In this document: one piece after another, positions 3,501 through 56,600 of the stretch | Position numbering within the stretch: position 1 is the first letter of the stretch | Layout: the number at the start of each line of letters is the position of its first letter | Source: Zygnema cylindricum | Taxonomy: Eukaryota; Streptophyta; Zygnematophyceae; Zygnematales; Zygnemataceae | DNA: 64,000 nucleotides | Assembly: GCA_037447655.1 (NCBI GenBank) | Contig: JBBHKE010001455.1 | Span: 137,868 to 201,867, forward strand | Direction of reading: 5' to 3' | Notes under the pieces: model-generated | Databases searched by the model: none | Told to the model about the DNA's origin: nothing | What the model saw: the letters and a program-made list of their open reading frames with translations, nothing else | Translations under genes and position numbers: made by a program

Positions 3501-6500
3501 TGAGCTGTTCTTTAACTGCCGTCTCCAGTGAAAACCTATCAGAGCCCATCGTGTCTTCAACTGCAACCATGTAAAAAAAAAAACCATTAAATAGACAACT
3601 TCCAGGTTTTCCAAGCACACCTGCAAGTGCCATCCATCAAATTCTAGCTGCATTCTTTGCAAAAAACAGTAGAAGATAATGGTACTTTTTTTGAAGATAA
3701 AACAAATTCCGTCCACAATAGCACGGCAGAGCAATGTGATGGCTTCACTGACTGAACACAGCCACACCAAACTGACCTCATCAAACTTATCCAATCCGGA
3801 AATTCCGGGAATATGTTTACGTAGGGCAAAAAGAATTAGAACAAATAAAGGGTACGTAAAAATGTAGCAGGTCTTGTTTTATTTTTTTCTGTACCCGCCC
3901 CTTTTCCGGCCCACAAATATCGGTATCCCGGTTGCAGTGTTAAGAGCGTCTTTATTGCTTTCAAGAGTGTCAAGGAGTGAGGTACTTAATGAACCTTTAA
4001 GGGCTAGCTGCAAGGCAAATTTCTGATTGCTAAAACCCCTGGCTGTAGTCATGATAAGACTCATACTCCATAATTACTTAGTTTTAGCAACTGAGATATA
4101 GGTGTGCAAAACCCCTGGCTGTAGTCATGATAAGACTCATACTCCATAATTACTTAGTTTTAGCAACTGAGATATAGGTGTGCACTTTTCTAGCAACTCA
4201 GAGGCAAGAAACTTTAGAGAGTCGAACTCATGACCTCATACTTAGTTGGCCGACAGCTTGGCCAAACGCCAAAAGTTAAAAAGAAACTCATATGCTAAAC
4301 ATAACAATTTGAAAAATACATTTGAAATTGAAAAGTACAGAAAGGTTTTGTACTTTCGCAAACAGGGAAAAACGTCGCTTGGCAGCTAAAATACGAAACA
4401 TGGATATCCACCGCCGTCGGCCATACCTAAGTTTAGGGGATTATCTTCATAAGACAATCCCCCAAAACAATAAGCAGCAAAGCTCAACAAACCAGCACCA
4501 AGGACTAAGTTTAAGATCCATGCCAAGTCAACAAGCTTTATCACCACAAAGGAAACAGGAAAGCTTTACATCGACTTCATGAATATGAAGGTTTGCCATG
4601 AAAGCAGAGGATGTCAATTGCAGCATTTATTTATGTCAGCGAGTCTAAAATCAAGAGGGAGAGGCATGCCTTAAGGTATGAGCTCACCAGCTGGCAACTC
4701 GCACTTCAGGTAAACTAAGGCCTGTTGCAGGAATGTTAATCTGCTATTCAGAAGGGTTTGTCGAATTGATTCGTTTTTTTCATTGGGTTCAGCACTGCCA
4801 ATCTCCGCCTCGTTGTAAAACATCTTTGCCGCCTGGAAAGAAGAAAAAAATTGTGTCACTGAAAGCAGAACAAATCAATGACTCGAATCTTCCTCACAGG
4901 CACATGTTCAGGAGTTAGCTGTCAAAATTTGATGTGGATCATTGAGTAACCATTTGAAGTGGATAATGAGTCGTTAATGACCTCCGCCTTTATTGTTGCA
5001 GACATAAAAGAATGAAAACCGGATATGGAAGCATCATACTTTACTTTAAATGTTCACATCCTTTACATGGTTGCAAAATCAGAACAGCAAACATGTGGAA
5101 AACATAAAATAGATGAAACTGCAAAAGGCCCTCCATACTCGGTGTACGATAAACACCTCAGGAGACACTTCACAAGGTAAAATGGATTACTTCTTGATTC
5201 GACGATTGATGAGTGGTGCATTAAGAAAATTAGGATTTAAAGGTTTCTTTCAAAAATTTTAAAGAGAAAACGGAAGTGCCATTGATGGTCCATATTGCAA
5301 AAAGCGTGTGGTTTACCATAAATGAATTGTGAGACAGCTGATAGACTATTGCTTGGCTTTCGAGACCACGCAAATAGGAGGAACGAGTCAAGACTTGCGT
5401 GGCATAAACATGCCCAGGAAGACTCTACAAAAGCTAAGCAAAATATTCAACCTATCCTGTTGCTTGTCAAAATCCCCAAGAAGCAAGATGTAATCACAAG
5501 AGTGGGTCAGTCATTAATCCTGCATCCAAGCAAGAAAGTCCAAAAGAAAAAACGCAAGAAGGTGACGCCCTTATTTCTTTAAGCATACAATAGAAATGAA
5601 ATTCTTTAAACACCTAATCCTCCCATGTGAGACCATTCGGATTCAGATGATAGCACTCCAATTAGTAGTATCAAACAAAGAGGGTTCAAAGATTTTAGAC
5701 ACCATTGCTGGGTCTCTAAACCTGCATTCTTGCACAGTCAGCAAACGCAATGGAGCCATGGTTCTGTGGATACATAGGTCCTGTAACTTCCTTGAGACAA
5801 TTTGAACGGAGACCAAATAACCTCATAAACCTTGACTCATCCATTAAAGAACATCAAGCTCACCTAATCATCTAAACTTTGACATGCAAGCACATCTCGA
5901 ATGAGAGGAGAAGCAACTTCATCTACATTCTTGTCACAACGAAATACAAAACCCACCTGAGAAAATAAGAAACCTTGGAGGGCGGTAAGCCCCCTAAAGA
6001 TGAGAAGACACACCTGAATGCCTCACACATTGCTCACTTGCCAAAAGTAACCTTGTTATGAGTTAAAACTGGAATAACACATCTCAAAGTCAATTAGCTT
6101 TTATGACACACTGATTTACCGTCATTTCAAGTTTAGGTCGTCCATAGGGTGACAACTTACTTGAAAAGCACAGTAAAGCCCGAGATGGACAATGCAGTAC
6201 TCCAGTGCGTTATACAAGGTAGTCACGCGCTTTATGCACCTTTTCCGCTCATTTTCTGCAATTTGTTGATCAATTGGATCCTGCCAAATACCAGCAAAAC
6301 GTTTCAAATACGATAACAGAATAAGTGTTGGTAGTGCATGCTTCAGCCTGTATAAATACCGAATTCTATCATAAATGAAGCAAAAGCTTTGCAGTAGATG
6401 CACAACCCAAGTCACCAGTTCTAAAAAATCATTTTGTATCGGTTGTCATGCCAAAAATCTACGATTTTGATATTATCAAATATTGATCAGTTGCATCCGG

Positions 6501-9500
6501 GGTTTTTTTTCTGACCATACCGAATGTCGCCAATTAATTGACGATGAACAATTTGTAGGGTGTAGAAAGGTAATACTACTGTACTCGCCTACATTTTTTA
6601 GAAATACATAAAGGTTTTCGGTTCGCGACAATATTTCTGCACTAAGAATAAAATAAAAACTGCAAAATGTCTGTTTTGTCATTTTCAATGCTGGTTTGTC
6701 TGTTCTTTGTTGAATGCATTCTCACCGTCTCAATATTTGATGACCGTTCAATCGTCCGTCAACAACGTATTTTGTATCGAAAAGGTTCACCCTTTTTGGA
6801 TGTGCCACCGGTACACATCAAAATCCGCGATTTGCACGTGATGTGTCATTTAATTTAAAAAATTTTGTTGCGTGTGCGTGTCCGCATTATCGAATAAAAA
6901 TCAATACTATTTTTAGGACTGATAGTAATTACCGGGGACCCCCAAAAGACCCCATTACTATCAGTTATCCCAAATTGGCCTTCCATATGAATGCCTAACT
7001 CATTCCCTATTTGACACAACGGAAAAGCCAACTACAGAGGCATAGACTAGATATGGTCAACTTCAAGGGCACACTGAAATTCAATGCTGAAAACACCTCA
7101 TAATCACAAAAGTGAAACCAAAAAGCTCCCTGGAAGTCTTTCATTATATGTTCAAACCTTTGAATTGGTACCGTGCGAGAAGGAACTTATTAAAGCGTTC
7201 TTTAGATCGTCCAAAAATACAAGAGCTCCTTTAGAGGCATCTGAGAAAACGTGCGATTCAAATTGCAAGGTATCCTCTTGGCATTCTTCAGAATCAATCT
7301 TAACAGCAACAAGCTGAAAAGGCATACAACAACCATCCCCAAATCCATAGTTTAGACCTTTCCTGTTTTCTTTTTTCAAGGACAAACAAAGCATTAGTTT
7401 GCCAATCCAAATATTCCAATGCATACTCAACAAGTTCAAAGTTTGGGCAAAGGCATAGAAAAATAAAACAAAAACCATATCAAAGCAAACATAATGCACT
7501 AGACAAAACTTACCAAGCTTTGCAAAAGCCATGTCTTTGACCAAATGTGGTGGTAAAGAGCTCACAACCCGAAAAAAGACGACTGGGTGATGCAAAGGTC
7601 TAAAACTTATGCCAAGATATGAAAAACATAAACAAGACTACTAACTAGCTTATCCGGACTATGGTGAAATCTCAAGATGTTGACCTACATTTGTACCTTA
7701 TTGGTCCTTGTTTACTATAAAAGGTAAACATCTCAATCAACATTCCAAGATTTCACCATAGTCCCAAGAGGTAATATTACTCTTCTCAACCTCGACAATC
7801 ATCAAAGAATACCTTTGCATCTAGCGTTTGCTCGAGTGATTGTAAGAGCTTTGTACAATCGTCCGCGGACTTCACACCTGCACACAAAGAACCATAATGG
7901 TGTCCGAGTATAGCATAGAGATGCCTTCCCAAATAAGAACAAACAAAAAAAAGCAAAAAAAACGCAAAAAAAAAAAATGGCAAATAAAACTTGACGTTTA
8001 CATTACTTTGCTACTAGTAGTTACCTTGTCCTATACAACCTTCCTTAATAGTTACCACCTTCCTTAATGGTCCACCTTCCTTAATAGTTACCTTATTCTT
8101 TTACAAACTTCTTTAAATTTCATTATAAATAATGTAACGACTATTTTTTTTTTTAGTGTTCGATCACACAAATAAAGATTGTTGGTGACATGACTAAATG
8201 CAACCCAATAGTGGGAGGCTTTTTTTTCACTTTTGCAACAATAAGTTGTATTGGATAATAACAATGGGTTTGATTGCCTTAGTCTTTAGTTTTTTTTTTT
8301 TTTTAAATGGAAAGGCATATGCGTACTATGGTTGGAGAACATTACGGTTTTTGTTTGCAAATGTGAAATCTACGGACGATTGTACAAAGCTTTCGCAATC
8401 GCTTGAGCAAACATTTGATGGGAAGGTATTCGTTGATTTGAAACGTCGAAGTAAAAGAACGTCAATAAAACTTATCTAAACTCTAATGAAATCTTTAACA
8501 TCTTGAGATTTCATCATAATTTACATAAGTTTATTGAATTTTCCCAACCTAAATCAAAAATACTTTGCATCAAATGCTTGCAAAAACAATTGCGAAAGCC
8601 TTTTAGAAGCGTCAGCAAATTTCACATTTGTACGCAAAAATCATAATGTTGATTAACCATAGTACGCATGTGCTTTTCCATTTAAAAAAAGAAAAAAAAT
8701 TGTAAGACCAAAGCAATCAAACCCATTGTTATTATCTAATACAACTTAGTGTTGCAAAAGTGAAAAAAAGCCTCTTCTTATTAAACTGTATTCAAATATG
8801 TCACTCAAACATGTCACTCGTAACCTTTACTTGTAATAGTTGCTACATTTTTCATAATGAGAGGCTAAAGAAGTTTGTTAGGAACAAGGTGACTACTAAC
8901 AACAAAAAATCTACAAGCTTTTAAAAAAAACTCTATATGAGAAGTTGAAGAAATTTGCAAAGGAACAAGGCGACTTCTAATAACAAAAAAAACTCAGCTT
9001 TTAGAAAGAACTCCATAACGACCTCTCTAATCTTGAATGTAAAAAACATTTTTTCTCAAAAACTCACCCCGCTTACCACAGTCCTCTCTAAATTTGAATG
9101 TAAAAAACAATTCTTCTCAAGAGCTCACCCTTCCTGTTAACCGGCGAAGCTGTCATACCGAATATCTTTGGCCTCATATTTACCTCCATTTTATGATAAA
9201 ATTCCTGAATCAAAAAAAAAAGCAAGAGATCTTCACATGCCGCACATGGGAGAAGTATCTTTTTGTTTTCAAGAGATGAACAAACCGAGAGCAAACACGG
9301 TACCAAGGAAGAGCAGTTCAATTGCATCCAATAATTGGCATGTTCGTAGACAGCAATATTTTGTGCAATGTCGACCTATAAAATACCTACTTTAAAGTTG
9401 AAACTGTACATACTATATTCGTCCATTTTAAACAAGGTATAAAAAGCTTTCAATTAGCTAATCAACACAAAGTACGAACAGATAATGGCTATAAACTTGG

Positions 9501-10982
9501 TTTTCAATTTGTTACACCTTGACAGAACAACAAAAAAAAAAAATATTAACAATCCGCCACCAAGACGAAGTATACATTCACTTTGACACAAATTGCAAAA
9601 CAGTTCAAAAACATCTCCTTACTGTATTCTTTGTTTATTCCTCTCAAATTTGTACTCCAGTTTGTTACCTCCATTCCCGTGATTGTGATGTAAGTAGTCA
9701 GCGTACCCGCATAATCACCGCATAGGGATGGTCGCTCTGGGCATGGTGACATTCGTCAAAAATCAGCAAGTCTACCATCTCCAGCTTAAGAAACGAGTGA
9801 GATAATGCGTTGAAGAGGACTTGTGGCGTCATGACCAACACCTGCGGTCCATTGCGATTGTGAGGCAGCCAGAGAGCACAGCTGATGTGAGTACCATTTG
9901 TCTTTCCCCGTTAACTCCCTTTGAACTGCGCGTCGTCTATATTTTCAGTGAAGGTGACGATGTCGCAGAAATATGCATACATCTAGAAATATCCAGCCGC
10001 TGCAACTTCATACTGTAAAAATATTACTAGAAAAAACAGTTAATTTACAGGCCAAGATAATCGACATAACAGATATTCCAGCCAGATTGGCAAGCAAGAG
10101 AATAAAAAAAGGGCATAAAGAGATTATTAACATGAGTGCCTGCACCTCATTTGCAGCAATTTCTTTTTCCCAGCGCAAAGAATCCAAAGAATCCATTTTA
10201 GCCCCAACAAGGTCCTTGACAGAAAAATCTGTTAACTTCTGAATCGATTTTTTTTGCTGCAAATCACCATGACAACTATTAGAGAAGGAAAAACGATGTA
10301 CCAAAAATTAAGTATTTAGAGAATCGTCAACTGCATTGAGCAGCATACCTCGATTTCGACACCCATAAAAATTCTAACCAAACAAAACTGCAACTGCGAA
10401 CACTTATGACTCACAGAAAAATGACCTTTCTTCTTATATAAATTAGGCATCAAATACTGCACTTGTATTCCGAAGAAAGTACCTATCTCCTTAAAATGTT
10501 GACACCAAATGTACAAATGTTTCCAACTCGTGGAAAAACAACGAGCCAACCAGCAACAGTGTGTAAGAGATTGTCCATAACATAGTTCAAATGCGCGAAA
10601 ACAGTTGGAGACGCTAAATGCGGTTACCACACACTGAACACGTATCATGCAAAGCGTATAGTATGGAATAACCTCATTTAGCATCTTAAATTGTTTTCTC
10701 CCATCTGAACTATGGTAGATACTCTTCCCTAGATCTCAGCAAGCTATACACAGCTTCTAAAGCACAAAAGCGGGTGTAAACCAGAGGGAAAGCTAACTCA
10801 CTTGATCAGCAAGTGGTACACTTGGAACAAGAAAAATGACAATCTTTTTAACATTTAAGTTGCGAAAAATTGAGGCTCGAAATTTCATCAGCAAAATAGC
10901 TATATAAGTTTTTCCAGCTCCTGTTGTGAGATGTGCAATGACATTTTTCTCCTTCGCTATCTCCAAGATTTCCAATTGATAC
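546..10982 (-). CDS. DCL: Dicer-like protein, helicase and DUF283 part (5' portion of gene, truncated by window)
   Basis: Dicer-like RNase III enzyme that cuts double-stranded RNA into small RNAs. Only the helicase and dimerisation half is in the window. Exons, in transcript order, are 10802-10982, 10146-10256, 9707-9841, 9129-9204, 7813-7877, 7158-7313, 6161-6280, 4688-4832, 3431-3560, 2925-3111, 2406-2566, 1545-1757 and 546-811. All have AG/GT borders and every junction keeps the frame. Motifs in order: [13 protein letters not shown] then TGAGKT (motif I, ATP binding), DECHH (motif II), GMTASPV (motif III), the helicase insertion, TPKV then [22 protein letters not shown] (motif V), QGRGRAR (motif VI), and a DUF283 domain ending [15 protein letters not shown]. 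The key helicase residues are intact. PAZ, RNase III and dsRBD domains are not visible. The exon joins and family are strong; the DCL subclass is not assigned. Introns carry MITEs, tandem repeats and a large inverted repeat made from one of the gene's own exons. Confidence 0.93.
1174..1299. mobile_element. TA-flanked MITE in a DCL intron
   Basis: The 126-bp segment begins CACCGTGTACTGCTATCG and ends with a diverged inverted copy (CTAATAGCGATACCCGG). It is bordered by TA on both sides. The same terminal repeat recurs at 44667, 50413 and 51878. Tc1/mariner-type elements duplicate TA, so a small non-autonomous member of that group is the likely origin. Confidence 0.5.
4032..4183. repeat. Perfect 76-bp tandem duplication in a DCL intron
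   Basis: Two directly adjacent 76-bp copies, 4032-4107 and 4108-4183, read the same base for base. The lack of divergence means a recent duplication (or a very recent assembly-level event). It lies between the exons at 3431-3560 and 4688-4832 and does not touch their splice sites. Confidence 0.9.
5864..5956 (-). other. Possible stop-containing cassette exon in DCL
   Basis: A 93-nt block lies between constitutive exons 6161-6280 and 4688-4832. It has a good acceptor (TTCTCAG) and a strong donor (TTAG/GTGAGC), is a multiple of three, and enters in phase 0. It reads as 30 protein-like residues and then an in-frame TAG as its last codon. The flanking exons join perfectly without it (LGLYCAFQ to AAKMF), matching Dicer family order, so it is normally skipped if used at all. 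Confidence 0.3.
6918..6965. repeat. Small perfect inverted repeat in a DCL intron
   Basis: A 12-bp perfect stem (ACTGATAGTAAT and its complement) flanks a 24-nt GC-rich spacer containing runs of G and C. It could fold into a short hairpin. No target duplication was seen. Confidence 0.6.
7656..7766. repeat. Inverted repeat just downstream of the DCL exon at 7813
   Basis: GGACTATGGTGAAATCT near 7656-7672 returns as its exact reverse complement near 7750-7766. One side (ATGGTGAAATCTCAAGATGTT, one mismatch) also matches the tip of the big hairpin read on the minus strand. This shows that the duplicated block included intron sequence on both sides of the exon. Confidence 0.7.
8361..8425 (+). pseudogene. 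Inverted (antisense) copy of the DCL exon 7813-7877
   Basis: This plus-strand block is 65 nt, exactly the length of the functional minus-strand exon, and keeps the codon pattern of the [19 protein letters not shown] stretch against [19 protein letters not shown] in the true exon. The acceptor AG is changed to AA, while the AAG/GTATTC donor is kept. Since DCL is transcribed from the minus strand, its pre-mRNA carries this copy as antisense. The longest perfect match to the true exon is 19 nt (CGGACGATTGTACAAAGCT). Confidence 0.9.
8563..8627 (-). pseudogene. Decayed same-orientation copy of the DCL exon
   Basis: This second 65-nt copy lies upstream of the true exon in the same orientation. The acceptor AG is lost (TACAA in place of GTGCAG), the donor GT is gone, and the reading is degraded, so it cannot replace the true exon. 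It pairs with the antisense copy at 8361-8425 to form part of the hairpin stem. Confidence 0.8.
8881..9130. repeat. Diverged tandem duplications reaching a DCL splice donor
   Basis: GGAACAAGG units start at 8881 and 8962 (81-bp spacing). A second pair, starting CCTCTCTAA at 9022 and CCTCTCTAA at 9083, has 61-bp spacing. The second pair includes the splice donor of exon 9129-9204, so a similar GGTGAG donor lies 61 nt further on at 9067. Confidence 0.6.
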
Positions 10983-11579
10983 CTGCCAGGAAAAATTCAA
11001 CCAGAAAAATCTAAGTAATCTAATTAACAGCCAGCAAAGTTCCAAAAACCAAAACAAAAAGAGTAAAAAAGTTCAATGAGATTAGACACACTAACGAGAA
11101 AGAATAGTCAAACTCAATCAAGGGGAGGGAGAGTGCGCCGTCTACTATCTGAAGGTGACTCCTCGAGAGCATCAAAAAAACAATACCGAAAGCAAAATTT
11201 GGGGACAGCTCCGCCAATCATTCAGCGACAAGGACAAGAGTTTCACAAAGATCATTTCACAAAAAGCAGCTAAAGACAAAAAAACTGTGGTCACAAAACC
11301 AAGCAAGAAAAAAAAGACAAAAAAATAATGAAGTTACCAAGACCTTTTTCTTGGTTGCCGCGTTAGAAACAATATAATTTTTTGACAAAGGTAAGTCTAG
11401 AGTGAAGTAGGAAAGCAACAAAATAAGAGGAGAGAGTTTAGTCAAGAAGTTTAATGCGAATTCCACAATCGCAAAAAAATAACTCCCATCATTTCGAAAA
11501 AAGGTAAAACTAAAACTTAAAACACAAACGGCTTAGAAAGAGTACCAAAACGTCGGTCACGTAGTTAATTACGAGGAAG

Positions 11580-12170
11580 AGGAGGGGGGGGAGGGTTGGA
11601 GAGAGAGAGAGACAGAGAAAGAGGGGGGGAGAGGGGGAGGGAGAGAAAGCGAGGAGAGAGGGACAGAGGGAGATACTAAGAGGAAAAGTTAAAAGGGAAA
11701 TTAAAGAAAAGAATAGCAAAAAAGAAGAAAAAAAAGAAGCTTTCCCGCGCTTTTCCTTCAAGAAGCAAAAACTCAGTTTTTGTTTTTATTAGATTATTAT
11801 CTTACTTAACCTTTAGAATTTTTTCGAGTTTTTTGTTTTTTCATCCAGCTTTCTGGTTTTTCTTTCTCTTGTTCATTTTCGGCTGCTCATTTCCCTTTTT
11901 TTCTTCCCTTGCCCCTTTTGGGGAGGGGGTGGAAGAGGTGAGAGAGGGAGAGAGAGGGAGCGAGACAGACAGAGAGAGAGGGGGAGAGATGTAGAGAGAG
12001 AAAGAGAGAGGGGTGAGAGAGGAGAGAGAGGGGGAGAGAAAGAGGGAGGGAGAGGGGGGGGGATCAGAGGGAGAGCGAAGGCAGAGCGAGGAAGAGAGGG
12101 AGGGGATGGGGGAGGAAGCAGGGAGGGAGAGGAGGGGAAGGAAAGAAAGGGGAGGGAAGAAACGGGAAAT
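11580..12170. repeat. Polypurine (GA-rich) microsatellite tracts
   Basis: The plus strand is almost pure G/A at about 11570-11680 and 11895-12170, mostly GAGAGG and GGGA units. On the DCL transcript these are CU-rich and probably intronic, or lie in the 5' leader. Such tracts can form triplex (H-DNA) structures and resemble GAGA-type promoter sequence. The AT-rich stretch between them (11690-11890) holds no recognisable gene. Confidence 0.8.
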
Positions 12171-26202: not shown

Positions 26203-26966
26203 GGCGTAGGCAGGAAGCTACTAATACTTCTACGAAAGGAAATCACTCTTGATTATAATATCCAAAACCCGTCAAATGAAGGAAAGACACTAAAATGAAA
26301 TTAAAAAGTCTCCACACACCACATCTAATTGGTCCCAAACCTGGGAAATGAAAAGCATTTCAAATTTTCATCAACACACAAAGACTACTCAGAAAACATG
26401 ACATTCAGCGACATGGAGTTGAAAGCACTTCAGAAACGATGCGCATCAAGTCATCTAGACGCCATCGTCTGCTACAGCTACAGCTACAGTACAGTCCATT
26501 CCAGTATTTTATCCTTTTCATCAGCTGCTGTCGCGATTCATGGAAACAGGAAACTCCTAAAATTTGAAATTTCGTACTCTCCAATCCCCGTACGGAACAT
26601 TCCTCCGGTACTGTACAGTACTATAAAAGACCCATACTGTACTTCCATGCGACGTGGAAGCAAAAGGTGCGCTTTTGCTCTCCGGGAGTTTGCGTTCCAT
26701 TGCCGTATGCTTACTTCCCGGGTACGGCCTGGCAGCCGCTGTGCAGAGGACAAACTAGTGTCAAATGCTTCCTGCACAGACTCGCCCAACGGCTCTATGT
26801 CGTTCACTCCTGCTTCTCTCCCTCTTTCACTCTCTCTCTCCCTCGCTCTCTGACCACAGGAGCACGCACACACTCTTGTTCACACCTACCTCTCTCTCTC
26901 TCTTCCACACAATTACACGCACATATATTCTTCTGACGCCCGTCACCCTAAACGTTAACGGACGTC
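26203..26966. promoter_or_regulatory. Shared divergent promoter region (coiled-coil gene and GBP-type gene)
   Basis: Only 764 bp separate two opposite start codons. TATAAAAG lies at 26622-26629, in plus orientation, about 340 bp upstream of the GBP-type ATG. It directly follows a perfect 14-bp palindrome, GTACTGTACAGTAC, at about 26608-26621. Downstream, 26815-26935 is CT-rich, as in many plant 5' leaders. No TATA box was seen for the coiled-coil gene. The element assignments are inference. Confidence 0.55.
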
Positions 26967-29900
26967 ATGTTCTGGTCACGGAGTCCTCAGCGTCCCTCGG
27001 CTCCAAAGCCTCCGGTGGCTCCAAAGCCGTCTGTTTCTGGACCAGCAACTGTTTGGACGGGAGGACCGAGGGCCGTACGTTTGGTGGCCCATGATGAAAG
27101 AGGAAAGTTCTTTATGGATCCTGAAGCCATAGCCGTATTGAGGAGATTAAAAGGACCTCTGGCAGTCGTTAGTGTATGCGGTAGGGCGCGGCAGGGGAAA
27201 AGTTTTATTCTAAATCAGGTATCTTACTTTCTACTTTCTTTTACTGTACTTTGGTTCAGTTCTATACTGAAAACTTCATATTTCTCATTCGTAAATCCTG
27301 GTTCTATTTTGCTCGTGTTCCTTCTTTCTCTTTTTACTTTTTTCTCCTTCAGCTGCTTGGACAAAGTAGTGGTTTCCAAGTGGGCCCCACCCACCGTCCT
27401 TGTACTAAGGGACTGTGGATGTGGAGTTCCCCCATAGAGAGAACGGCTCCCGATGGAAGTCGGTACCATCTTTTATTACTGGACAGCGAGGGAATAGAGG
27501 CGTACGACCAAACGGTAGGCCCTTTGAATATTATTGTGACTGTTGTAGTTGATTGACTTTTATCTCAAAGTTTTTGTTTTTGTCAAAGTCCGTCCAGTTA
27601 TTTAAATTATTTATGAAATAGTTTTGTAAAAATCTGTGTAGAATTGTGAATTTTATGTGGAAATGTGTCAATTTTGCGTGAAATTGTTTAGAAAGACCTT
27701 ATGTTTCCAGGTCAATGCATTGTGTAACTAAACTTTGTAGTCGTCTTTCGCTCTTTTTCACTGAGAATGTGTGCAAATCTTTTACAAGAAGACACGCGAG
27801 AGAGGGAGCGAAAAGCGAGGGGGAGAGAGAGAGAGAGGCAGAGAGAAAGTGGGAAAGAGAGAGGGAGAGAGAGAGGAAGAGAGGAGGAGAGCGAAAGATT
27901 GAGGGAGAGCGAGAGAGGGAGGGAGAGCGAGGGAGAGAGGGGGAGAGTGAAAGAGGTAGGAATAGAGGGAGGAAGAGAGAAAGGGAGGGAGGGAAGGAGA
28001 GGGAGCGAGAGTGGAGAGGAAAAAGGAGCGAATTAATTTGATAATTTCACTGTATGAAATTGATTTTGAAGGTTAAGGCCCAAAACAAGTTGACGACAAA
28101 TAAACTTGACCAGTCTTGACTCTATTTGACTTGACTCTTCTTGACTTGTCTTTTCCCACGTTAATACAGATAGTTGTAATCCAATTCGAGAGATGAAAAG
28201 TAACACATGATTGTCGTTTTGATGATTTTTTTTTTTTTTTTAAATCTGGTACAGGGAACATATAGTACTCAAATCTTTTCTCTCGCTGTACTTCTCTCCA
28301 GTCTGTTTGTCTTCAATCAGGTATGCGGTACAAAACTGCTTAGAAAGAATCAGACACTTTTCCTTATTCCAGTTTTACTTCCTATTCTTTTCAGTTTTTC
28401 TTAATTACCATGTCTCCGTACTTGTTATCTTTCTAAAAAGTCCTTTCTGCACTTAGGTTTTTAGAACTAAATTTTGTTATTTTATGCCATTTGTTTTTTT
28501 AGGAAGTTATGAAATGTTGTTATCAGTACAATCTATGAGCTACTTTGGACTAGGCCTTATTTGAAAATGCTACATAGGAGATACTATGTATACTGTGTAT
28601 ACTTTTACCATAGTTAAGCAAAATCCTCGCCCTTTGAATCCACAATTATTATGGTGTGATTAGTGCACTACCTCTCCCTGTATGTTGATCCAAAAGAATC
28701 CCCTATCGTCTTTCGGTTTTTTTGTCTTTCAAGTAAAATTGGTGCTCGATATATCTCCTCTCTCTGACCCTCTTTGTTGTGTCTTTTCCTTTTCCCGTCT
28801 CCCTTCTCTTGTGGACCTTTTTCTCTCTCTTCGCATTTTCTCCTTCTCTTCTACTTCACCCTTGGTCTACTTGCTCCCCAATTTTTTCCCTCTGTCTTTT
28901 CTTTACGATCTTTTCTCCCTCAACTCTCCTCCTATCTTTCCTTGTCACCGTCCTTTCTTGCTCTCACTCTTCCACAACTCTTTCCCTCTCTCTCTCCTAC
29001 CCTCTTCTCCCCTCTCCTCCCCTCCCTCTCTCCCCCTCTCATCTCCATCCCTCCCTCCATTCCTCTCTCCCCCCCTCCCCCTCCCTCCCTCCCTCCCTCC
29101 CTCCCTCTCCCCCTCCCCAGATGGGCGGCATCGACGAGGCGGCCCTGGACAACCTGGCACTGGTGACGGAGCTGTCACGTCACATCCGTGTGAGAGCCGA
29201 GGCGGGCGGGGCGGCCTCCTCCGCTCACGAACTCGGGGCCCACTCGCCCGTCTTCGTGTGGCTGCTGAGGGTGAGGGGAGGGAGGGGGCGAGGGAGGGGG
29301 GGTAGGAGGAGGAGGGAAACGATCCCCGGTGTCTGTTCCTTCTTTCTATGAGAGTTTTCCATCACAATGTCAACAATGTCTACAACGTTTTCCCTCGACG
29401 TTGTTTGTCGGGTTACTTAGGCAGGAGGAGTGTTCGTTGTTCCGCTCCGTTGGTCCGGAATTGTTATTCATAAGTGATTCTTTTAAAAGTGTTTTTTTTT
29501 GGCAAGTGATGTATGGAGGGAGGGAGTGTGGTTTGGCAGGACTTCTATCTGGACTTGACGGAGGACGGGCACAAAATCAGTCCCCGGGACTACTTGGAGG
29601 AAGCGCTGAAGCCCATGCCAGGCAATAACCAGGCCGTGCTGTCCAAAAACCAGGTCAGAATTGGTATTGGGATTGGGGATTGGGGAATGCGGAATGGGGA
29701 ACGCGGAATGGGGATCGCAGAATGGGGAATGGGGAATTGGATTGGGAATCGGGAATCAGGTTTGAAATTCACAAGAAATGTTTACATTATTGAAATGGTT
29801 AGGTTGTCTTTGTTTTTACAATCTCTCTTCTCTTTTTAGTTACAATGTGAGATTTTTGTGTGTATTTTCAGCGAAATAAATTATCATTTTGAGCCATCAT

Positions 29901-36472: not shown

Positions 36473-37070
36473 GTTGTTTTTTTAAGTCTTATTTGCACCG
36501 TGTTGGTGTTATGTTGTTATGTATGAGAAGTAGTTTTAGGGGGAGGAAATGCCAAATAAGTTCATTGGTGTAATAGCATTGTAAATCTTACGTCCTGCTA
36601 GTGGATATTCATCGTCGAAGCTTAGTTGTCGTGAAGTTCATCAGTTTATGTACAAATAGATGAACCCATCGTATGATTCCTATAATGGATTCTAAAAATT
36701 GATAAGTTTACCAGACAATTCTTGAATCTCTTAGCTGATGGTGAATGTGACAAAATACTATGTGCTAGGTTGTTACAAAGAATTGATTTTGAATTCTTTC
36801 ATTATTTTGTGAGGAGGTGGAAGCTGCAAATGGTTCGGCGATCATCAATTTTTTGATCCTGAAGCCTTTGTGTCCACCTTGACAGCTTCTTCTCAGCCTG
36901 GGATGTTGCTCTGTGCTTCACAATAACAACGTGCCTTAAAAGACCGTATGATATTCTAAGGAAGACTTACATATTAAGATGAAGAGGATGTGAAATAACA
37001 ATAACTGATCAGTGGTCGGGTTAAAGAGTACTCGGTACTTTTTGCTTTGTCGTTATCGACCATAGTTCAA
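36473..37070. other. Region downstream of the GBP-type gene
   Basis: This holds the 3' untranslated and polyadenylation region of the GBP-type gene and ordinary AT-rich DNA. No exon or RNA gene was recognised. Confidence 0.6.
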
Positions 37071-37628
37071 AAGAAGGTGACCGTACGCCCACACAATATG
37101 CCTATTGTACGTAAAACATACTATATGCCCTTAAGACCCATATTGTATTGGCCGCAAAATGAAATAAAATAGGAACAGGGTTGAGTTGCACATACATGGA
37201 TAGAGAATTAAACGTCATGTCTAAATTTTGAAAAACATTCGGACAAAAAAATATTTTTCCTTGAGTTTTGAGGTATTTTTACTTTAAACCGTCAGATTTG
37301 GACGATCGGACGGTCGCTGATCAAAGTAGCGATCTAAGAAGGTCACATGAAAAGCCCATAGTACAACTTACGATAAGACTTACGTCCGCGTTTTTTTTTT
37401 TTTTCCGGGATTTTTTTCCCGCGGAATGTCATCCTATGCCGTGTCAATTCGCTAAAAAAATTCGTCCGCCGGCTTGCGCTGTACTATGATGATACGTCAT
37501 ATTCGTACGTTCGTACAGGGGTGTGCACAACGCACACACATACAGTATGCCTCATCTGCGCGAGTTTTGTGCCAAGTTTTGTGCGCCTACCAAACGCCTA
37601 CCATAAAAACGCCTACTTTTGAACTATG
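37071..37628. mobile_element. hAT-like MITE, older copy
   Basis: A 558-bp element begins CATAGTTCAAAAGAAGGTG and ends with the inverted form (CCTACTTTTGAACTATG). The flanking 8-mers TTATCGAC and TTTTCAAC agree at six of eight positions, a decayed target duplication. Its inner sequence (for example GATCAAAGTAGCGATCTAAG) recurs inverted in the copy at 38289. No transposase is present. Confidence 0.7.
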
Positions 37629-37636
37629 TTTTCAAC

Positions 37637-38280
37637 AAGGATTTCACCTAGCTCGGGTTATTTTTATGCCAAGGGTATTTCTGTATTTCAACAAATATTC
37701 TACTTTAAAATCAAGATCCCTGTCGGTTCCAAAACCTGGAAATCGACGGTTGCGACTTGATAGGCAACATTGGTATTTAGTTCCTCATATTGTTCGATAC
37801 AGCTGGAGCTAATGGTATTAGCGTTTAGCAATAAAGTACGAAATCAAAAAAGAACTTACGGTTTTGCCGTACATGGTATGGCCATTTGTACCTGTTGCAA
37901 ATACAACAATTGTAAAACAAGCAACGACAAATGCAAAACACATGTCGGGCTGATGGTTTTGGGGAGTTCTGGCAATCGACGTTTCTCATCACCCTACGCA
38001 AAAGCCGGAAAACCGCGGTGTAACGAGCACATAGAAACGCGAAAATCTTTCGTTTCTATGTTCACTCTGTATCGCTTTTGCGCTTTTTGCTTATGTTGAC
38101 GCTTTCGCTCTGCGGCCAGTTGTAGTCGCTCGTCCGCTGACAGCAATTGTTTCAACATTCCACTTGTAGGCGCTCGCGCTTTTGTTTCTAAGCTCCAACT
38201 GTCTTTTCATTGGCCAACGTAGGACGCATTTGCTCTATTATTTTCGTGTTTTGTATGTTCCAGTTACCACGCGTTTGCTG
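37637..38280. other. Unique spacer between the two hAT-like MITEs
   Basis: About 640 bp without a recognisable gene. Together with the inverted MITEs on either side it forms a larger foldback structure spanning 37071-38594. Confidence 0.5.
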
Positions 38281-38288
38281 CTTTCGCC

Positions 38289-38594
38289 CATAGTTCAAAA
38301 GTAGGTGTTTTTATGGTAGGCCTTTGGTCGGCGCCTTTATCGTAAGTTGTGTTATGGGCTTTTCATGTGATCTTCTTAGATCGCTACTTTGATCAGCGAC
38401 CGTCCGATCGTCAGAATCTGACGGTGTAAATAAAATTTTTTGGTCCGAATTATTTAATTGGTCCAATTTTTGGTCTGAATGTTTCAATTGGTCCGAATAG
38501 GTTCGAATACAATATGGGTCTTAAGGTCATATTATATGTTTTGCATACCATAGGCATATTGTATGGGCCTACTTTCACCTACTTTTAAACTATG
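38289..38594. mobile_element. hAT-like MITE, younger copy with perfect 8-bp target duplication
   Basis: A 306-bp element runs from CATAGTTCAAAAGTAGGTG to its inverted complement CACCTACTTTTAAACTATG. It is flanked on both sides by CTTTCGCC (38281-38288 and 38595-38602). Eight-base duplications are typical of the hAT superfamily. It is non-autonomous and opposite in orientation to the copy at 37071. Confidence 0.85.
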
Positions 38595-39779: not shown

Positions 39780-42700
39780 TTCTGCTTCGGTTGAACTTAA
39801 TGCGACAGTTGCCTGAAGTCGCGAAATCCAAGAAACTGCCGCGCCGCCAAAAACAAAGGCATAACCACCAAAAACAAAGGCATAACCAGACGTTGACTTT
39901 CTTGTGTCGAAGTCGCCGCCCTAGTATGCGTCACAATATCCCACACACTCCGAAGATTCATGTCCATATCGAAATAATAATCCAATCTCAATCGTACTTG
40001 CAAGGTAACGAAAGACTCTCTTCACGGCCTCCCAATGAATCTTCTTAGGAGCCTGACAAAATTGGCTCACGACAGAAACTGTTGCTGAGATGTCCGGTCG
40101 CGTGGCCACACTTAAATACATTAAACTCCCGACGGCCGCACGATAGGGCACGTGGACTCTTTCCTACTCCTCAAATTTGTGATATTGAAGTTTGGAATCT
40201 AGTGGCTTCAAATCCGGCTTAGAATCCAACATAGCAAATTTTGTCAGTATTTCTTTACAATATTGCGCGTGCGACAATTTAATATCACCATTATCGTTCC
40301 TTAAAACTTCCACTCTGAGAATATATCGTATGTCCCCCAAATCTGTGACTTTAAAATGTAGACGCAGGTACTCCTTCAATTCCGTGATTCGCGTAAACTT
40401 GTCACATATCATCAAGAAGTCATCCACGTAGACTGAAAATATAATTTGATCCCCCCCCTCACCTTTGACACAAACGCCAGAGTCTAAAACTGTACGTACG
40501 AATCCAAATTCAGTAAAGACCTTGTGTAATCGTAAGTACCAAGTCCGAGGTGCTTGTTTTAGTCCGTAAAAGAACTTTCGCAGCCGCCATACCTTCCTTT
40601 CCTTCAACACTACCCCCTCCGGAACCTTCATATAAACCTCCTCTTCTAAATCACCATTTAAGAACGTCGTTTCTACGTCCATTTGGTGAAAATGCTTCTT
40701 GCCGGCAGCGGCAATAGCATCAATCATTCTTAGAGAATAAAATTTGACCACCGGTGCATATGTTTATGAATAGTCAACCCCCTCCCTTTGTTGAAAGCCC
40801 TTGCAAACTAACTGAGCCTTGTGTTTCACTATTTCCCCCGATGCACTAAGTTTAGTTTAAAAAATCCATTTCGCATCAATGGCATTTTTACCCTCCGGTA
40901 AGCTTACCTCCTCAAAAGTACGGTTGTCAATAATTGATTCAAGTTCTCTTTCCCATGCCGGTTTCCAATGTGTCTCCCAATCGCATGATTTTTCTGCTTC
41001 CACATACGATAGCAGATCACGCGGCTCATTTTCGCATAATGATTGCTATAAAATAAAACCATCCTCTCTCTCTGCTGAAATAAAATAATACGAATTCTCC
41101 ATATTTCCCTTACCATCAAAGGAAAGGCGAGCCAGTTTCTTTCCCCTATTTTCTTGCATACTCCTCCTTGGCTCAAATTCTTTTTCCTTCTTCGCCGGTT
41201 CCTCCTCAATGATATTCGGTTCACTCGATTTAGAAGACGAAGATTTCCTCGTGTCCGAAGACATTCGGGAATTTTCGCTTCGTGAATCCCCACGAAACGT
41301 TACCAAAATTTACATTTTCCTCAATTTTACCTTTCCCCCACTTAATATTGGAGGTGGATTCCAGCTCAATTTCCGAATCCGAACCCACAATGTCATTCAA
41401 ATCCGCAATGTCAAATTCCTTATGAAAATCAAGATTAGAAGGTCGCTTAGCCGATCGAGAAATCGTGGATAGTAAATCCTCGTGAAAATCCACATTCCTC
41501 GATTCCTCAATTATATTTCGAACCAGATCGTAAACTCGATAAAGACTTCCTTTCGAACTATACCCCACAAAATATCCACTCCAATTCCTCGAATCAAATT
41601 TCCCCTTTCTCTTTTGTGATTAAATATAAACCGATACACGACATCCCCAAATCCGAATGTGGTGAAGAGTAGGTTTTCGTCCATACCACAATTTATACGG
41701 AGTTTTGTCACCCGAAACTGATGTAATCCTCCGATTAAAAATATAATTGCTGTCAAAATCGCATCGCCCTATAAGTTAATGCTCCTTCCGGATCTGTATA
41801 CCATAGATCGTACCATTTCTTGAAGTGTACGGTTCTTTCTTTCCGCCACTCCATTGGATTCCGGTGAGTAAGATGCGGTATATTGGTGAAAAATTCCCCA
41901 CTCTTTACAATAAGGATCAAAAGCAAGAAATTCCCCTCCATTATCCGATCTAATAGATTTTACTTATTGCCTTTCGGCCATCACATGCCACTCTTGAAGC
42001 GTAAAAATGCTTCCGATTTGTGTTTAAGTAATATTACCCATGTGAAGCAAGAGAAGTCCTCCACCACCACCGTAATATATTTGTTTCCACCAATCGTCTC
42101 CGATTTTACGTCCCCACATAAATCAATATGCACTAGATCAAGCGGATGCTTAGATCGATGCATCGGATCCTTAGCCGGATGTGGCTTTCGGATTTATCTC
42201 CCCTTATTACACCCCTCACATCCGTTAATTTTCTCCCCCGGCGCCAAATCTCATCCCCTTACCCTCCCATTTTTAACCATCTGTCGTAAACTCCCTTTGG
42301 ATGTGTGACACATACGGTGGTGCCACAAAGTTAGATCGCCTTTCAATTCGGAGATTTGCGAAATAATTCCACCGGAATTTGGGGGGGAAATTTTCGGCCG
42401 ACGCCATTTTAGACGACTATGCATAAAATCCGTGACTTCTCCTTCACCTATTAGTACACCATCATATCGTACAATTTTTATTGTGGAGTCGCCATACGTA
42501 AGTACGCAGACGCCCGTTTGCTGAATCTGTGGTACAGTGAGAAGATTCACACCTTCAAGTAAGTACAAAACATTTGTTAGTTGATTTTGCGTCACTTTTT
42601 CAACGCCACGTGCGTCCAAAATTGGTAAATCTTGTACCGATCGAAATCACTTGTCCACTTGCGACAATGATTCGTTTTGGGACCGTGAGTTGACGCATCT

Positions 42701-44002
42701 CGTCAAAAAACAAGGCGTCCGTACATACCTGGTGAGATGCGCCAGAGTCAATAATCCACTTTTTTTCTTGTGGCGCAGTACCTATCAAAACATCAAGTGA
42801 AAAGTTAAGAGCGGAAAAGAAATACGCGTTTTCTCCTCCTTCAAATTGATCGTCGCCCATAAAATGTCATCCTCCTCCTCCTCTACCATGGCGGCCTCCA
42901 CGACCGCCGCGGCCGCCAAGACGACTGCGGCCGCGGCCACCATTCCGGCCGCCGCCGTCTCCTTCACCACCGCCGCCTCTATTTTCGGCCTTTGAATATT
43001 ATTGGGGGCTTATATGGCCCCATTTCCCGCAACAATGGCATTGTCTCTCCTTATCCGGGCAAGAGGCCGCCATGTGGACGAGTTCACCACACTGAAAGCA
43101 ACTAAGTTTACATAGATCTTGATATCCCGGCTGGGAAGGAGATCTCCCGGCCCTTTCGTGCCCTCTTCCCCCTCTTCCTCTCGGATTTCCCCTTCTTCTT
43201 CCTCCTCTTCCCCTAAGATAATTTAGATCGAGCGTTTCCAATGTCGTTCCATTGAGGGAACCGGTCGGTTGGGCTCCCTTCGATGAACTCGGACGATTTG
43301 ACTCGGTTGATTTGAGGAATGTAATGATGGAGTCTAAAGTATTCGAATCCCTCGATAAGAGAATATCCCTCAAATGTATCATTTTCTCCTGTAAGGCATG
43401 GGTGAAGACCGATGCCTTATCATTCTCTTCAATAAATTTTCCCATATTTGCGAGTTGCTCAATAATAATGTTAAATCTATTTGCGGCCATATCGATAGAT
43501 TCATTTGGTTTCACTTTGAAAGATGTATAATCAAAATAAATATGTTGCCTCTTATTTTGAAGACTCTTCTCAAAGTGATTTTCAAAAGCCACCGAACAAT
43601 CATGGGCGAATCTTCGGGTAAGAAATAGATCATGTATAGAAGCATACAAAATTGGAAAAAACCGCCAACGGCGGAAAGATTTTTCTTCATCCACACTCAG
43701 TAAGCCCTTTAATCCGAAATAGAAATTTTTTCCACCCCTTTTACCATCTTCTAAAGCCGTTTTAGTTTAAATTGGCCTTTGATGTACTTCTTTAACGATT
43801 GATAATTCGTTCCATTGAAGATGACCATCTTTCCAAACATAGATTCAACCCGTTCGTCCCCTTCACTCCAATAATCAAGATCGGAATCATCATCGATTGG
43901 AAGTTTCCCCTTTCGAATCAATTCCCTCCACTCCTCTTCATCTACTTCCGGATCTCCAATGCTTGGATCCAGATTCGGATCTCGAAAGAACGGAGGTCTC
44001 AC
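39780..44002 (-). pseudogene. Broken gag-pol of copia element 1
   Basis: Reading on the minus strand from 44002, a gag region (FNGTNYQSLKKYIKGQ near 43800, then a UBN2-like part at 42999-43694) carries CCHC-type knuckles (CFQCGELVHMAASC and CHCCGKWGH). An aspartic protease follows (WIIDSGASHQVC near 42750), then the pre-integrase HH region near 42300, fragments of integrase at 41.75-42.2 kb, a reverse transcriptase at 40164-40751 (HQMDVETTFLNGDL, YGLKQAPR, YVDD), and an RNase H remnant below 40151. At least eight frame changes or stops separate these pieces, so no functional polyprotein can be made. Confidence 0.85.
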
Positions 44003-53636: not shown

Positions 53637-56600
53637 CTCCCTTTATTTTGTAGTCAATCTTTAATTTCAGACCACACTTTTCCCTGTAGAAAATTAGATT
53701 AGGGGAAGGCACAGGTTGGGTCATCATATCTGCTACCATCTCACTATCTGGTCGGTACTCTAAGCTGATTATTTTGTTTTCTACTTTCTCTCTGACAAAG
53801 CTGAGTCTAATGTCCATGTGTTTAGCTTTAAAATGATGTTTAGGATTGGCAGAAATAGCGATTGCTGCCTAATTATCACAAAAAAATTTATGCACACCAC
53901 TCTTAAGGTGACCAAGCTCACCAAGCAAAGACTTGACCCACATCAATTCTTTTATAGCAGAGCAAGAGGCGATATACTTAGCCTCCATGGTGGACTGAGC
54001 AATAACTTTTTGCTGTTTGCTACTCCAACAGCAAGCCCCATCACCCATATATAATACATATCTAGAAGTGCATCTCCTCATCGAAGCATCACTATAACTG
54101 GCATCACTCCAAGTAGTGATGTCAGTATTCTCCCCACCCAAATGCAACCATAGATCCCTAGTTCCTATCAAATATCTAAGGACTCTCTTAGCTGCCTCCC
54201 AATCCCTCTTAGTGGGAGCATTTAGACTTCTACTCAGCACTCCTACTGCTGCAGCTAAATCCGGCCGGGTACAATTCATAAAATAGATTAGACTTCCCAC
54301 TACTTGCCTGTAAGGAATAGTCTGCATGAACTTCTGTTCTTCAGGAGATAATTCCTCGTCTAAGACTATGACTCCTTCTTCCTCACTCCCCTCACTTCCC
54401 TTCTTCAACTCTATTGGAGTTGTACAACTACTAGCTTTATCCATTTCAAATTTTTCAAGCATGTTCCCTATTGCTTCTTTTTGAGTCAATCTTATAATTT
54501 TTCTTTTTCGGTCTCTCTCTTCTTGAATTCCCAAAATATATTTGGCTTCCCCCATATCCTTCATTTCAAATCTCCCCTTAAGATCAGTTTTCAATTTATT
54601 AATTTTTTTCCATTGATTTACTTAAGACAAGCAAATCATCAACATAAATTGCAATAAATATTAAACCTTCCTCATCTTCGAAAACATAGATTGAGTGATC
54701 TGAGCTGATCCGGATATATCCGAGACCGGTAAGAAGCTCATCAAGCTTCTTATTCCATTGTGGAGGCGCCTGTTTCAAACCATAAAGAGATTTAATCAGC
54801 CAGCATACCTTACTCTCCTCTCCTTCCTCCACAAACCCTTCGGGTTGTCGCATGAAGATCTCCTCTTCCAATTCTCCATGCAAAAAGGTTGTCTTGATGT
54901 CCATCTGGTGCACTTCCATGTCTTCCGCTGCTGCCAAGCTGAGAAGTATGCGGATGGAGGGAAATCTGACCACCGGGGCAAAGGTTTCCTCGTAGTCAAT
55001 TCCCTCTTTTTGTGTAAATCCCTTTGCCACTAATCGGGCCTTGTAGCGCTCGATTGTGTTATTTGGGTTCAGTTTTAATTTGAAAACCCACTTACAACCG
55101 ATTGGTTTTCGGTTAGGTGGACAATCGACCAGCTCCCAAGTATCGGCTCCCATAATTTAGGCCATCTCCTCATTGATGGCTGTCTTCCACCGGTTTCTTT
55201 CTGGACAAGTCATCGCCTCTCCATAAGTTTGAGGTTCATCTTGATGAGATAGTTTAGTTACCTTGTTATTAACCTGTTTTTCTTGTAGTCTTTTGCTACT
55301 TCTCCTTCCCCCCTCAAAATCTGAGGCCGGAATAGATGGTTCTCGTGGATTCTTTCGAACAAACTCGGCTTCTCCCCTATCCCTTGATTCCGAATCAATT
55401 TCCACCACGTCTTCCGCTTCGGGTAGAGTTGTCACTGGAGTTTCCACAGCCGAGTCCTTTTCGGTCTGATTTGTATCTGCAAGAATGTCATCTTCTCTAA
55501 AACCCGGATAGTTAGGGAGCTCAAAGTCATCGGAATTTTTTGACTCAAATCTGATTTTTACTGACTTTGTATATTTGAAGGGATCCACAGACTTTCTTTC
55601 ATCCATAACTACTAGATGCTTTACTAAGATTATATCTTCTCTTTTTAGATCATAAACTCTATATCCTTTAACATCCTCATCATATCCTAATAAGTATCCC
55701 GGTTTTCCTTTAGGATTTAGCTTCCAATTAGACCGATCTGTATCTAGACTGAATACTTGACTGCCGAAAACCTTTAAGTGAGATAAGTTTGGTTTCCGGC
55801 CTGTCCATCTCTCATTAGGTGTTTGATCTTTTATTGCTGAAGTAAGAACTCTATTTTTGAGGTAATTAGCACAGTTCATTGCTTCTGCCCAAAACCTTTT
55901 TCCTATCTTCTTATCTGACAACATACTTCTAGAACTATCACTTAGTGTTCTATTTAACCTTTCAGCTACCCCATTCTGTTCCGAGTTTTCAGGAACTGTC
56001 TTTTGGTGTTGAACCCTATCTTCCCTCAGAAAATCCTCAAACAGGTTAGAAGTATACTCTCCACCATTGTCACTCCTTATTCTTTTGACTGGAGTTTCAT
56101 GAAGTTTTTCGCTCCATGCTTTATATTGTCTAAAACAATACTGAGCTTCGGACTTGTTTTTCAAAAAAATACACTCGGGAATACCAAAACCAATCATCAG
56201 TGATAGTCATCATAAATCTCTTCCCCCCTGGTGAGGGCACTTTAGCTGGTCCCCAAATATCTGTGTGTACTAGATCTAGAATTTTTTCTCCCTTATAGGT
56301 GGATGTTTTAGGAAAGGGTAATCTGTGTGTTTTACCTTGAGCACATCCACTACAATCACTTATATTATCATTCTCACTAAACTTAATCCCTTCCACCACT
56401 CCCATCTTTTTCATCTCTCTTAACTTGTCTAGATTCACATGCCCAAGCCTCTTATGCCACATCATAATATCATGAACACCAGCATAATAAAGTTTCTTCT
56501 TTTCATTACTTAAAACCAGCCTAAACATCCCATGGCTACCTTTCTCAACAATGAAATAGACACCCTCCTCAAAACTAGCAGTAAAGACTCCTTCCCTAGT

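Follow-up and report, generated by a model that had tools for sequence, protein, structure and literature searches.

A Dicer-like gene of Zygnema cylindricum with a predicted long hairpin, formed from copies of its own exon, within an intron

Does a Dicer gene whose intron holds a long foldback made of copies of its own exon control itself through that foldback, or is the foldback a by-product of the way in which it arose? The question is posed by a locus of the alga Zygnema cylindricum. The sequence analysed here (the window; 64,000 nucleotides) corresponds to positions 137868–201867 of contig C1086, within a 353-Mb genome of 2689 contigs, and all coordinates below refer to the window unless another contig or locus is named. 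A preliminary description of this sequence had placed the hairpin in a Dicer-like gene and had proposed that small RNAs cut from it could limit expression of the gene.

The Dicer-like gene was characterized from its domain content. Its helicase and Dicer_dimer part lies on the minus strand (10984–597) and was recognized from Pfam and solved-structure (PDB) matches: DEAD, ResIII, Helicase_C and Dicer_dimer scored 39.4, 41, 41.2 and 44 bits, respectively, each above its Pfam cut-off, and the top solved-structure match was Dicer homolog 1 (7eld, 2.9e-40, with one frame), which we take to be an Arabidopsis protein structure. In the adjacent 10 kb on the left (L009), none of the three minus-strand frames matched a Pfam family. 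The 10 kb to the left of that (L010) contain, on the minus strand, two RNase III domains (40.4 and 55.9 bits; threshold 27), and on the same strand a PAZ-like match that, at 22.8 bits, falls short of the 28.8 required. We infer that the helicase/Dicer_dimer part and the RNase III/PAZ-like part belong to one long Dicer gene that extends across the match-free L009. In a protein search with the Dicer-like gene, the named proteins among the best 120 of 1420 matches were plant DCLs, and no near-identical DCL was present among these or among the best 120 of 244 proteins. The neighbouring gene, a member of the Sec23/Sec24 family, had one match at 91% and others at 49–59% among its best 120 of 393; its listed matches came mainly from land plants and included Klebsormidium.

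The exon at the centre of this study is 65 nucleotides long (7813–7877, minus strand), with phase 1 on entry and phase 0 on exit, and owing to this length its skipping or doubling shifts the reading frame. It is separated by an intron of 1251 nucleotides (7878–9128, minus strand) from an upstream exon that encodes a helicase motif (9129–9204, minus strand); the latter was located by a phmmer match to 7eld, and its boundaries were set by hand from CAG/GAAT and AAGG/GTGAGC, as were the splice sites of the intron and of the 65-nucleotide exon. Exon 9204–9129 joins exon 7877–7813 in frame. In agreement with the earlier identification of the gene as Dicer-like, the joined peptide aligns at the same place in 118 of the 120 listed DCLs, the remaining two being without the anchor motif used for the alignment. 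At the 65-nucleotide exon, the L of LE is present in 117 of 117 aligned DCLs, the E in 116 of 117 and the L of LD in 114 of 117. In the predicted gene model, 7813–7877 belongs to the Dicer-like gene and is presumed to be functional. A 48-nucleotide tandem duplication (9022–9069 and 9083–9130, 88%) reproduces the sequence around the 5' splice site of the same intron, and provides a second GGTGAG-like donor about 61 nucleotides into it, use of which would shift the frame.

Two further copies of the 65-nucleotide exon are found within the intron, at the places where the preliminary description had put them. One is inverted (8361–8425, plus strand), so that in the DCL transcript it runs antisense to the exon; it is identical to the exon at 51 of 65 positions (z 19.0). 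The other is a decayed direct copy (8563–8627, minus strand) in which the acceptor AG is lost, with 43 of 65 positions identical (z 9.6; each z value for copies and arms relates a local score to 300 dinucleotide shuffles). The similarity to the inverted copy continues into the flanks, the exon and its surroundings aligning over approximately 200 nucleotides (151/198 identical). The longest perfect run between exon and inverted copy is the 19-nucleotide stretch pointed out previously, CGGACGATTGTACAAAGCT. When 14 mismatches were placed randomly in 65 nucleotides, a run of at least 19 appeared in 5.8% of 20,000 draws; the run is therefore unremarkable in itself.

The two copies lie in opposing arms of a single foldback. 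The 5' arm in the transcript contains the direct copy (8506–9003, minus strand; 498 nucleotides) and the 3' arm contains the inverted copy (7984–8494, plus strand; 511 nucleotides), with a loop of 11 nucleotides between them (8495–8505). The loop is as originally reported, while the arms, drawn from a local arm alignment and the fold, are longer than the 400–490 bp given at that time. Arm-to-arm identity in the inner part of the hairpin (8215–8774) is 79.5% by BLAST and is weaker in the outer part: 227 of 267 aligned positions are identical in the inner arms (z 33.1) and 136 of 173 in the outer arms (z 8.8). Folding of the intron RNA, a check that the preliminary description had suggested, gave −392.6 kcal/mol with RNAfold for 7984–8960 on the transcript strand, about 200 kcal/mol below 20 shuffled sequences, which averaged −193.2 (z −23). 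The predicted fold of 7984–9003 contains 366 cross-arm pairs, and its longest uninterrupted helix is 33 bp. Membership of a known miRNA family was considered for the hairpin and rejected on Rfam scores: within 7500–9300 nothing reached its gathering score; the best match, MIR8562, had 45.1 of the required 211 bits (E 2e-6), and MIR2863 had 20.2 of 94.

A second contig made it possible to compare two versions of the locus. C1651 (16.8 kb; L006 and L007) aligns with the window over approximately 7 kb and carries the same hairpin structure at about 1.2% divergence. In bins of 250 nucleotides, substitutions between the two range from 0 to 1.6% over 5161–11660 and from 5 to 13% in the last 500 nucleotides. 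The inner arms differ at 5 of 274 and 5 of 262 positions and the whole intron at 15 of 1252; the 65-nucleotide exon carries one substitution in 65, synonymous by reading, and the segment 9661–10410, which includes the DECH exon, carries none in 750. A G-to-A difference at 8374, in the inverted copy, leaves 17 nucleotides as the longest exon match within C1651, and the 19-nucleotide run is thus polymorphic between the contigs. C1651 is probably the other haplotype of the DCL locus, or possibly a recent paralogue. Past its match to the DCL locus, C1651 also matches 53869–57035 and other regions of the window.

The sequence next to the exon offers a clue to the origin of the hairpin that the preliminary description had overlooked. 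A palindrome at 7647–7772 has matches on at least 21 contigs besides C1086 and C1651, several of them on both strands. An alignment of 24 intervals from 21 distinct loci (L015–L017 were excluded as repeats of L026, L038 and L032) contains fuller copies with long terminal inverted repeats and several half-copies. Being short, with terminal inverted repeats and many dispersed copies, the element can be classed from its sequence as a putative miniature inverted-repeat transposable element (MITE). The apex of the hairpin (8461–8543, including the loop) shows similarity to MITE copies from 4 of these 21 loci (E up to 1e-3, best 3.8e-6), and its match to the neighbouring MITE at 7647–7772 is modest, with z 4.8 in one orientation and 1.8 in the other. 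The apex is probably a degraded relic of a MITE. By eye, the exon, the inverted copy and the direct copy each abut MITE-like sequence at the same place, and the order along the transcript is direct copy, MITE relic, inverted copy, exon, MITE.

We consider it fairly likely that the hairpin is an old, decaying, MITE-seeded inverted duplication in the Dicer-like gene, an incidental Dicer substrate in which no feedback has been kept by selection. A MITE would have been located just downstream of the 65-nucleotide exon at the start. Copying would then have folded back at the terminal inverted repeats of the MITE, with or without an earlier tandem duplication, to yield the order of copies and elements given above. 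In the pre-mRNA, the direct copy, which is transcribed first, would have paired with the neighbouring inverted copy by the time that the real exon is made, and the exon would thereby be left free and be spliced normally. Small RNAs produced incidentally from such a hairpin would be low-level and heterogeneous; with no feedback held by selection, the hairpin would constitute raw material for a miRNA of the inverted-duplication type.

The copies themselves provide information on the number of steps involved. In both the inverted and the direct copy, AA stands where the exon has its acceptor AG, and at the same two codons L is replaced by S and by F, respectively; S occurs at the first of these codons in none of 118 aligned DCLs and F at the second in none of 117. 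The shared loss of the acceptor and the two shared codon changes suggest that both arms descend from, or have been homogenized to, a dead copy of the exon. Such shared states conflict with an origin in a single event unless the arms were converted, and a single clean event is thus unlikely; probably, a tandem copy had died before its inversion, or the arms were converted to each other. In the flanks, private changes (31 on the exon side, 14 in the inverted copy and 19 in the direct copy, counted in ungapped columns, with 51 gapped columns left out) reject a star-like relationship of the three (p 0.028), but the test is weak because significance is lost without the T-rich stretch 7931–7993 (21, 13 and 17 changes, p 0.39). 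The second junction of the rearrangement lies in A-rich sequence at approximately 7949–7984.

The two contigs were compared for signs that the hairpin is kept for a function. The arms differ between C1086 and C1651 at about the rate of the intron. From the window to C1651, 13 arm substitutions convert six Watson–Crick pairs to mismatches, two Watson–Crick pairs to G-U and one mismatch to a Watson–Crick pair, and leave four mismatches as mismatches; no compensated change was found among them. The substitutions are unpolarized and exclude indels, and two haplotypes give little power against weak selection. An excess of G-U over A-C oppositions was considered as a sign of selection on the RNA and was rejected, with 12 G-U against 11 A-C and hence no strand-specific excess in the core of the hairpin; over the full arms the excess is weak (35 against 24 in the window, p 0.19; 41 against 24 in C1651, p 0.046), and the two contigs are not independent. 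The inverted copy has accumulated fewer private changes than the direct copy, both in the exon part (3 versus 11, p 0.057) and over all ungapped columns (17 versus 30, p 0.079), which could hint at constraint or conversion. Within the inverted copy, the exon part is not significantly slower than the flanks (3/65 versus 14/151 private changes, p 0.29), and between the arms the exon-like part is not better kept than the inner arms overall (14/65 versus 40/267 mismatches, p 0.20). Judged by these comparisons, the hairpin sequence shows no clear sign of upkeep for function.

These comparisons bear directly on the self-limiting loop envisaged in the preliminary description, in which the inverted arm would give rise to siRNAs that are complementary to the mature exon and guide cleavage of DCL mRNA. 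The sequences would permit such targeting: the best 21-mer of the inverted arm has a single mismatch to the exon (two in C1651), and 19 of the 45 possible 21-mers over the exon have three mismatches or fewer to the inverted copy, which is also the less changed of the two copies in its exon part, as noted above. The distribution of the mismatches, on the other hand, argues against it. By codon position 1, 2 and 3, the 14 exon–arm mismatches number 2, 3 and 9, indicating that the exon drifts synonymously and that the arm does not follow, a skew that coding constraint on the exon can explain. Identity between exon and arm (51/65) may be compared with 38/52 in the intron just upstream and 37/60 downstream, and coding constraint may or may not account for the higher value at the exon. 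The 19-nucleotide match is moreover polymorphic, and the haplotypes show no compensated change. Cleavage of the mRNA in trans appears improbable to us; a loop is possible from the 21-mer matches, but a maintained one is without clear support in the sequence, given intron-like divergence, the lack of compensated changes and the lack of a G-U excess in the core. Complementarity to the exon would not be necessary if Dicer cleaved the still unspliced transcript of its own gene at the hairpin, in the manner of miR838, so that truncated transcripts limited its level. Feedback in cis of this kind is in keeping with the length of the predicted foldback and its 33-bp helix, with the two RNase III domains and the PAZ-like match further along the same strand, and with the precedents in intron 14 of Arabidopsis DCL1 (miR838) and intron 7 of Physcomitrella DCL1, PpDCL1 (miR1047), as described in PMC4429486 and PMC12825306. 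Upkeep of pairing between the two haplotypes is nevertheless without sign, and we regard cutting in cis as unlikely, albeit more likely than targeting of the exon, should feedback exist.

Two other accounts leave small RNAs aside. In one, the inverted copy would hide the exon by pairing with it and so cause a skip, with the direct copy acting as competitor. The energies allow this, the predicted arm–exon duplex (−185.5) being near the arm–arm duplex in strength (−198.3), and a skip of the 65-nucleotide exon would shift the frame; the direct copy, however, is adjacent to the inverted copy and is transcribed before the exon, and in the minimum-energy fold of exon plus intron, as read from the dot-bracket, arm pairs with arm and the exon is left out. 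A splicing switch is therefore very unlikely in our estimation. In the other account, the hairpin is an artefact of assembly, a concern that had been raised at the outset, or a mobile foldback element into which the exon was taken up. Foldbacks are indeed ordinary in this genome, several being present in a sample of 197,169 bases comprising the window, seven pieces of 6.8–10 kb and 20 loci chosen for holding the MITE. Six further palindromes or clusters with arms of at least 80 nucleotides were found there, in L010, L022, L029, L035 (two) and L041 (a cluster, arms up to 235). The inverted repeat is carried by C1651 too, however, and with the structure thus present on a separate contig that diverges by about 1.2%, the hairpin is not an assembly artefact; the arms, furthermore, are diverged and not identical. 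The segment 8221–8769 matched the genome at C1086 and C1651 only (best candidates scored, very common words skipped), and the candidacy of the whole hairpin as a dispersed mobile or foldback element was rejected, with no match beyond these two contigs. We give artefact and mobile element together almost no weight, and retain the MITE-seeded, decaying inverted duplication as the preferred reading.

Within the foldback sample, the hairpin of the DCL intron is the longest palindrome (arm 280 by BLAST). Inverted repeats with longer arms have spacers of 0.9–1 kb: one of 2023 nucleotides in L040 (2290–4312 and 5198–7232, arms of approximately 2 kb at 84% identity, spacer 885 nucleotides) and one of 316 nucleotides in the window (37061–38594). 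The palindrome in L010 (90–251, arm approximately 81 nucleotides, 69%) lies in the 10 kb that bears the RNase III domains, approximately 20 kb to the left of the first base of the window. C781 (L029) was examined as a second inverted triplication and set aside, since by eye it appears to consist of nested MITE copies. A second palindromic element of approximately 230–260 nucleotides, common to L022 (1795–2024) and L018 (2653–2909), was also noted by eye. Elsewhere in the window, Copia-like retrotransposon reading frames were seen by eye at 40164–43766 and 53869–57035, and a reading frame at 26952–27437 presumably resembles the N-terminus of a guanylate-binding-protein-type GTPase, with coiled-coil-like frames further on.

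We favour a reading of the structure as an old, decaying proto-hairpin that Dicer could use as a substrate, similar in type to the DCL1-intron hairpins miR838 and miR1047. miR838 resides in intron 14 of Arabidopsis DCL1, where cutting of the pre-mRNA acts as feedback (PMC4429486 and PMC12825306), and miR1047 resides in intron 7 of PpDCL1 (PMC4429486). The analogy with miR838 drawn in the preliminary description holds in that the foldback lies within a DCL intron, on splice sites set by hand; as in both precedents, it is transcribed with the gene and could be cut by the gene's own product. It differs from them in its arms of approximately 500 nucleotides, which are partly copies of the neighbouring exon and are centred on a probable MITE relic; homology to an exon is unmentioned for miR838 and miR1047 in the available portions of the same two papers. 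The 5'-UTR of Arabidopsis DCL1 contains a stem–loop that is bound by DCL1 and to which no sRNA reads mapped (PMC12825306). Like the present hairpin, that element belongs to a DCL transcript and has been proposed to act in feedback; unlike it, it is not an intronic foldback derived from an exon. DCLs of streptophyte algae are covered in PMC7994812.

Parallels also exist in the ways that plant hairpins are thought to arise. The hypothesis that plant MIRNA genes originate by inverted duplication, as cited in PMC3086885, likewise posits an inverted copy of a coding segment that becomes a hairpin arm antisense to its parent, and homology of the arm to its target here extends well beyond 21 nucleotides (151/198), as expected of a proto-MIRNA of this type; the hairpin differs in lying inside the parent gene's own intron, adjoining the parent exon. 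The same source describes hairpins and miRNA genes derived from MITEs in plants, in which, as here, a palindromic MITE gives the centre of the fold; in the DCL intron, unlike in those cases, the arms are mostly non-MITE sequence, made up of the exon copy and intron flanks. DUP-TRP/INV-DUP rearrangements, which arise by template switching at inverted repeats (PMC4352052), have the same direct–inverted–direct order and a junction at an inverted repeat, as the apex of the present hairpin probably is. The present rearrangement is, by comparison, sub-kilobase in size and belongs to a plant-lineage genome, and the states shared by its copies favour two steps or later conversion. Among the best-ranked matches in the open-licence literature, as represented by titles and the starts of abstracts, we recognized no hairpin formed from a gene's own exon in an intron of that gene, and nothing on the topic of template switching linked to miRNA genes was found in the open-licence literature.

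It is improbable, in our judgement, that the Dicer gene of this streptophyte-lineage alga regulates itself through the intronic hairpin made from its own exon, with the enzyme dicing the hairpin and the antisense products hitting that exon in its own mRNA. Were this true, an inverted-duplication miRNA would have been observed as it arises within the gene that it targets, seeded by a transposon palindrome, and a further independent intronic DCL hairpin would stand beside miR838 and miR1047. If the hairpin is diced, the Dicer gene would carry its own thermostat, built from its own exon. The parent exon, the hairpin and the MITE all lie within 1.4 kb, so that the model is testable with ordinary small-RNA data. 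Even if inert, the locus would show legibly how a coding exon can become, through a transposon palindrome, a long hairpin within the same gene, a conversion that is the first step needed by the inverted-duplication hypothesis of miRNA birth.
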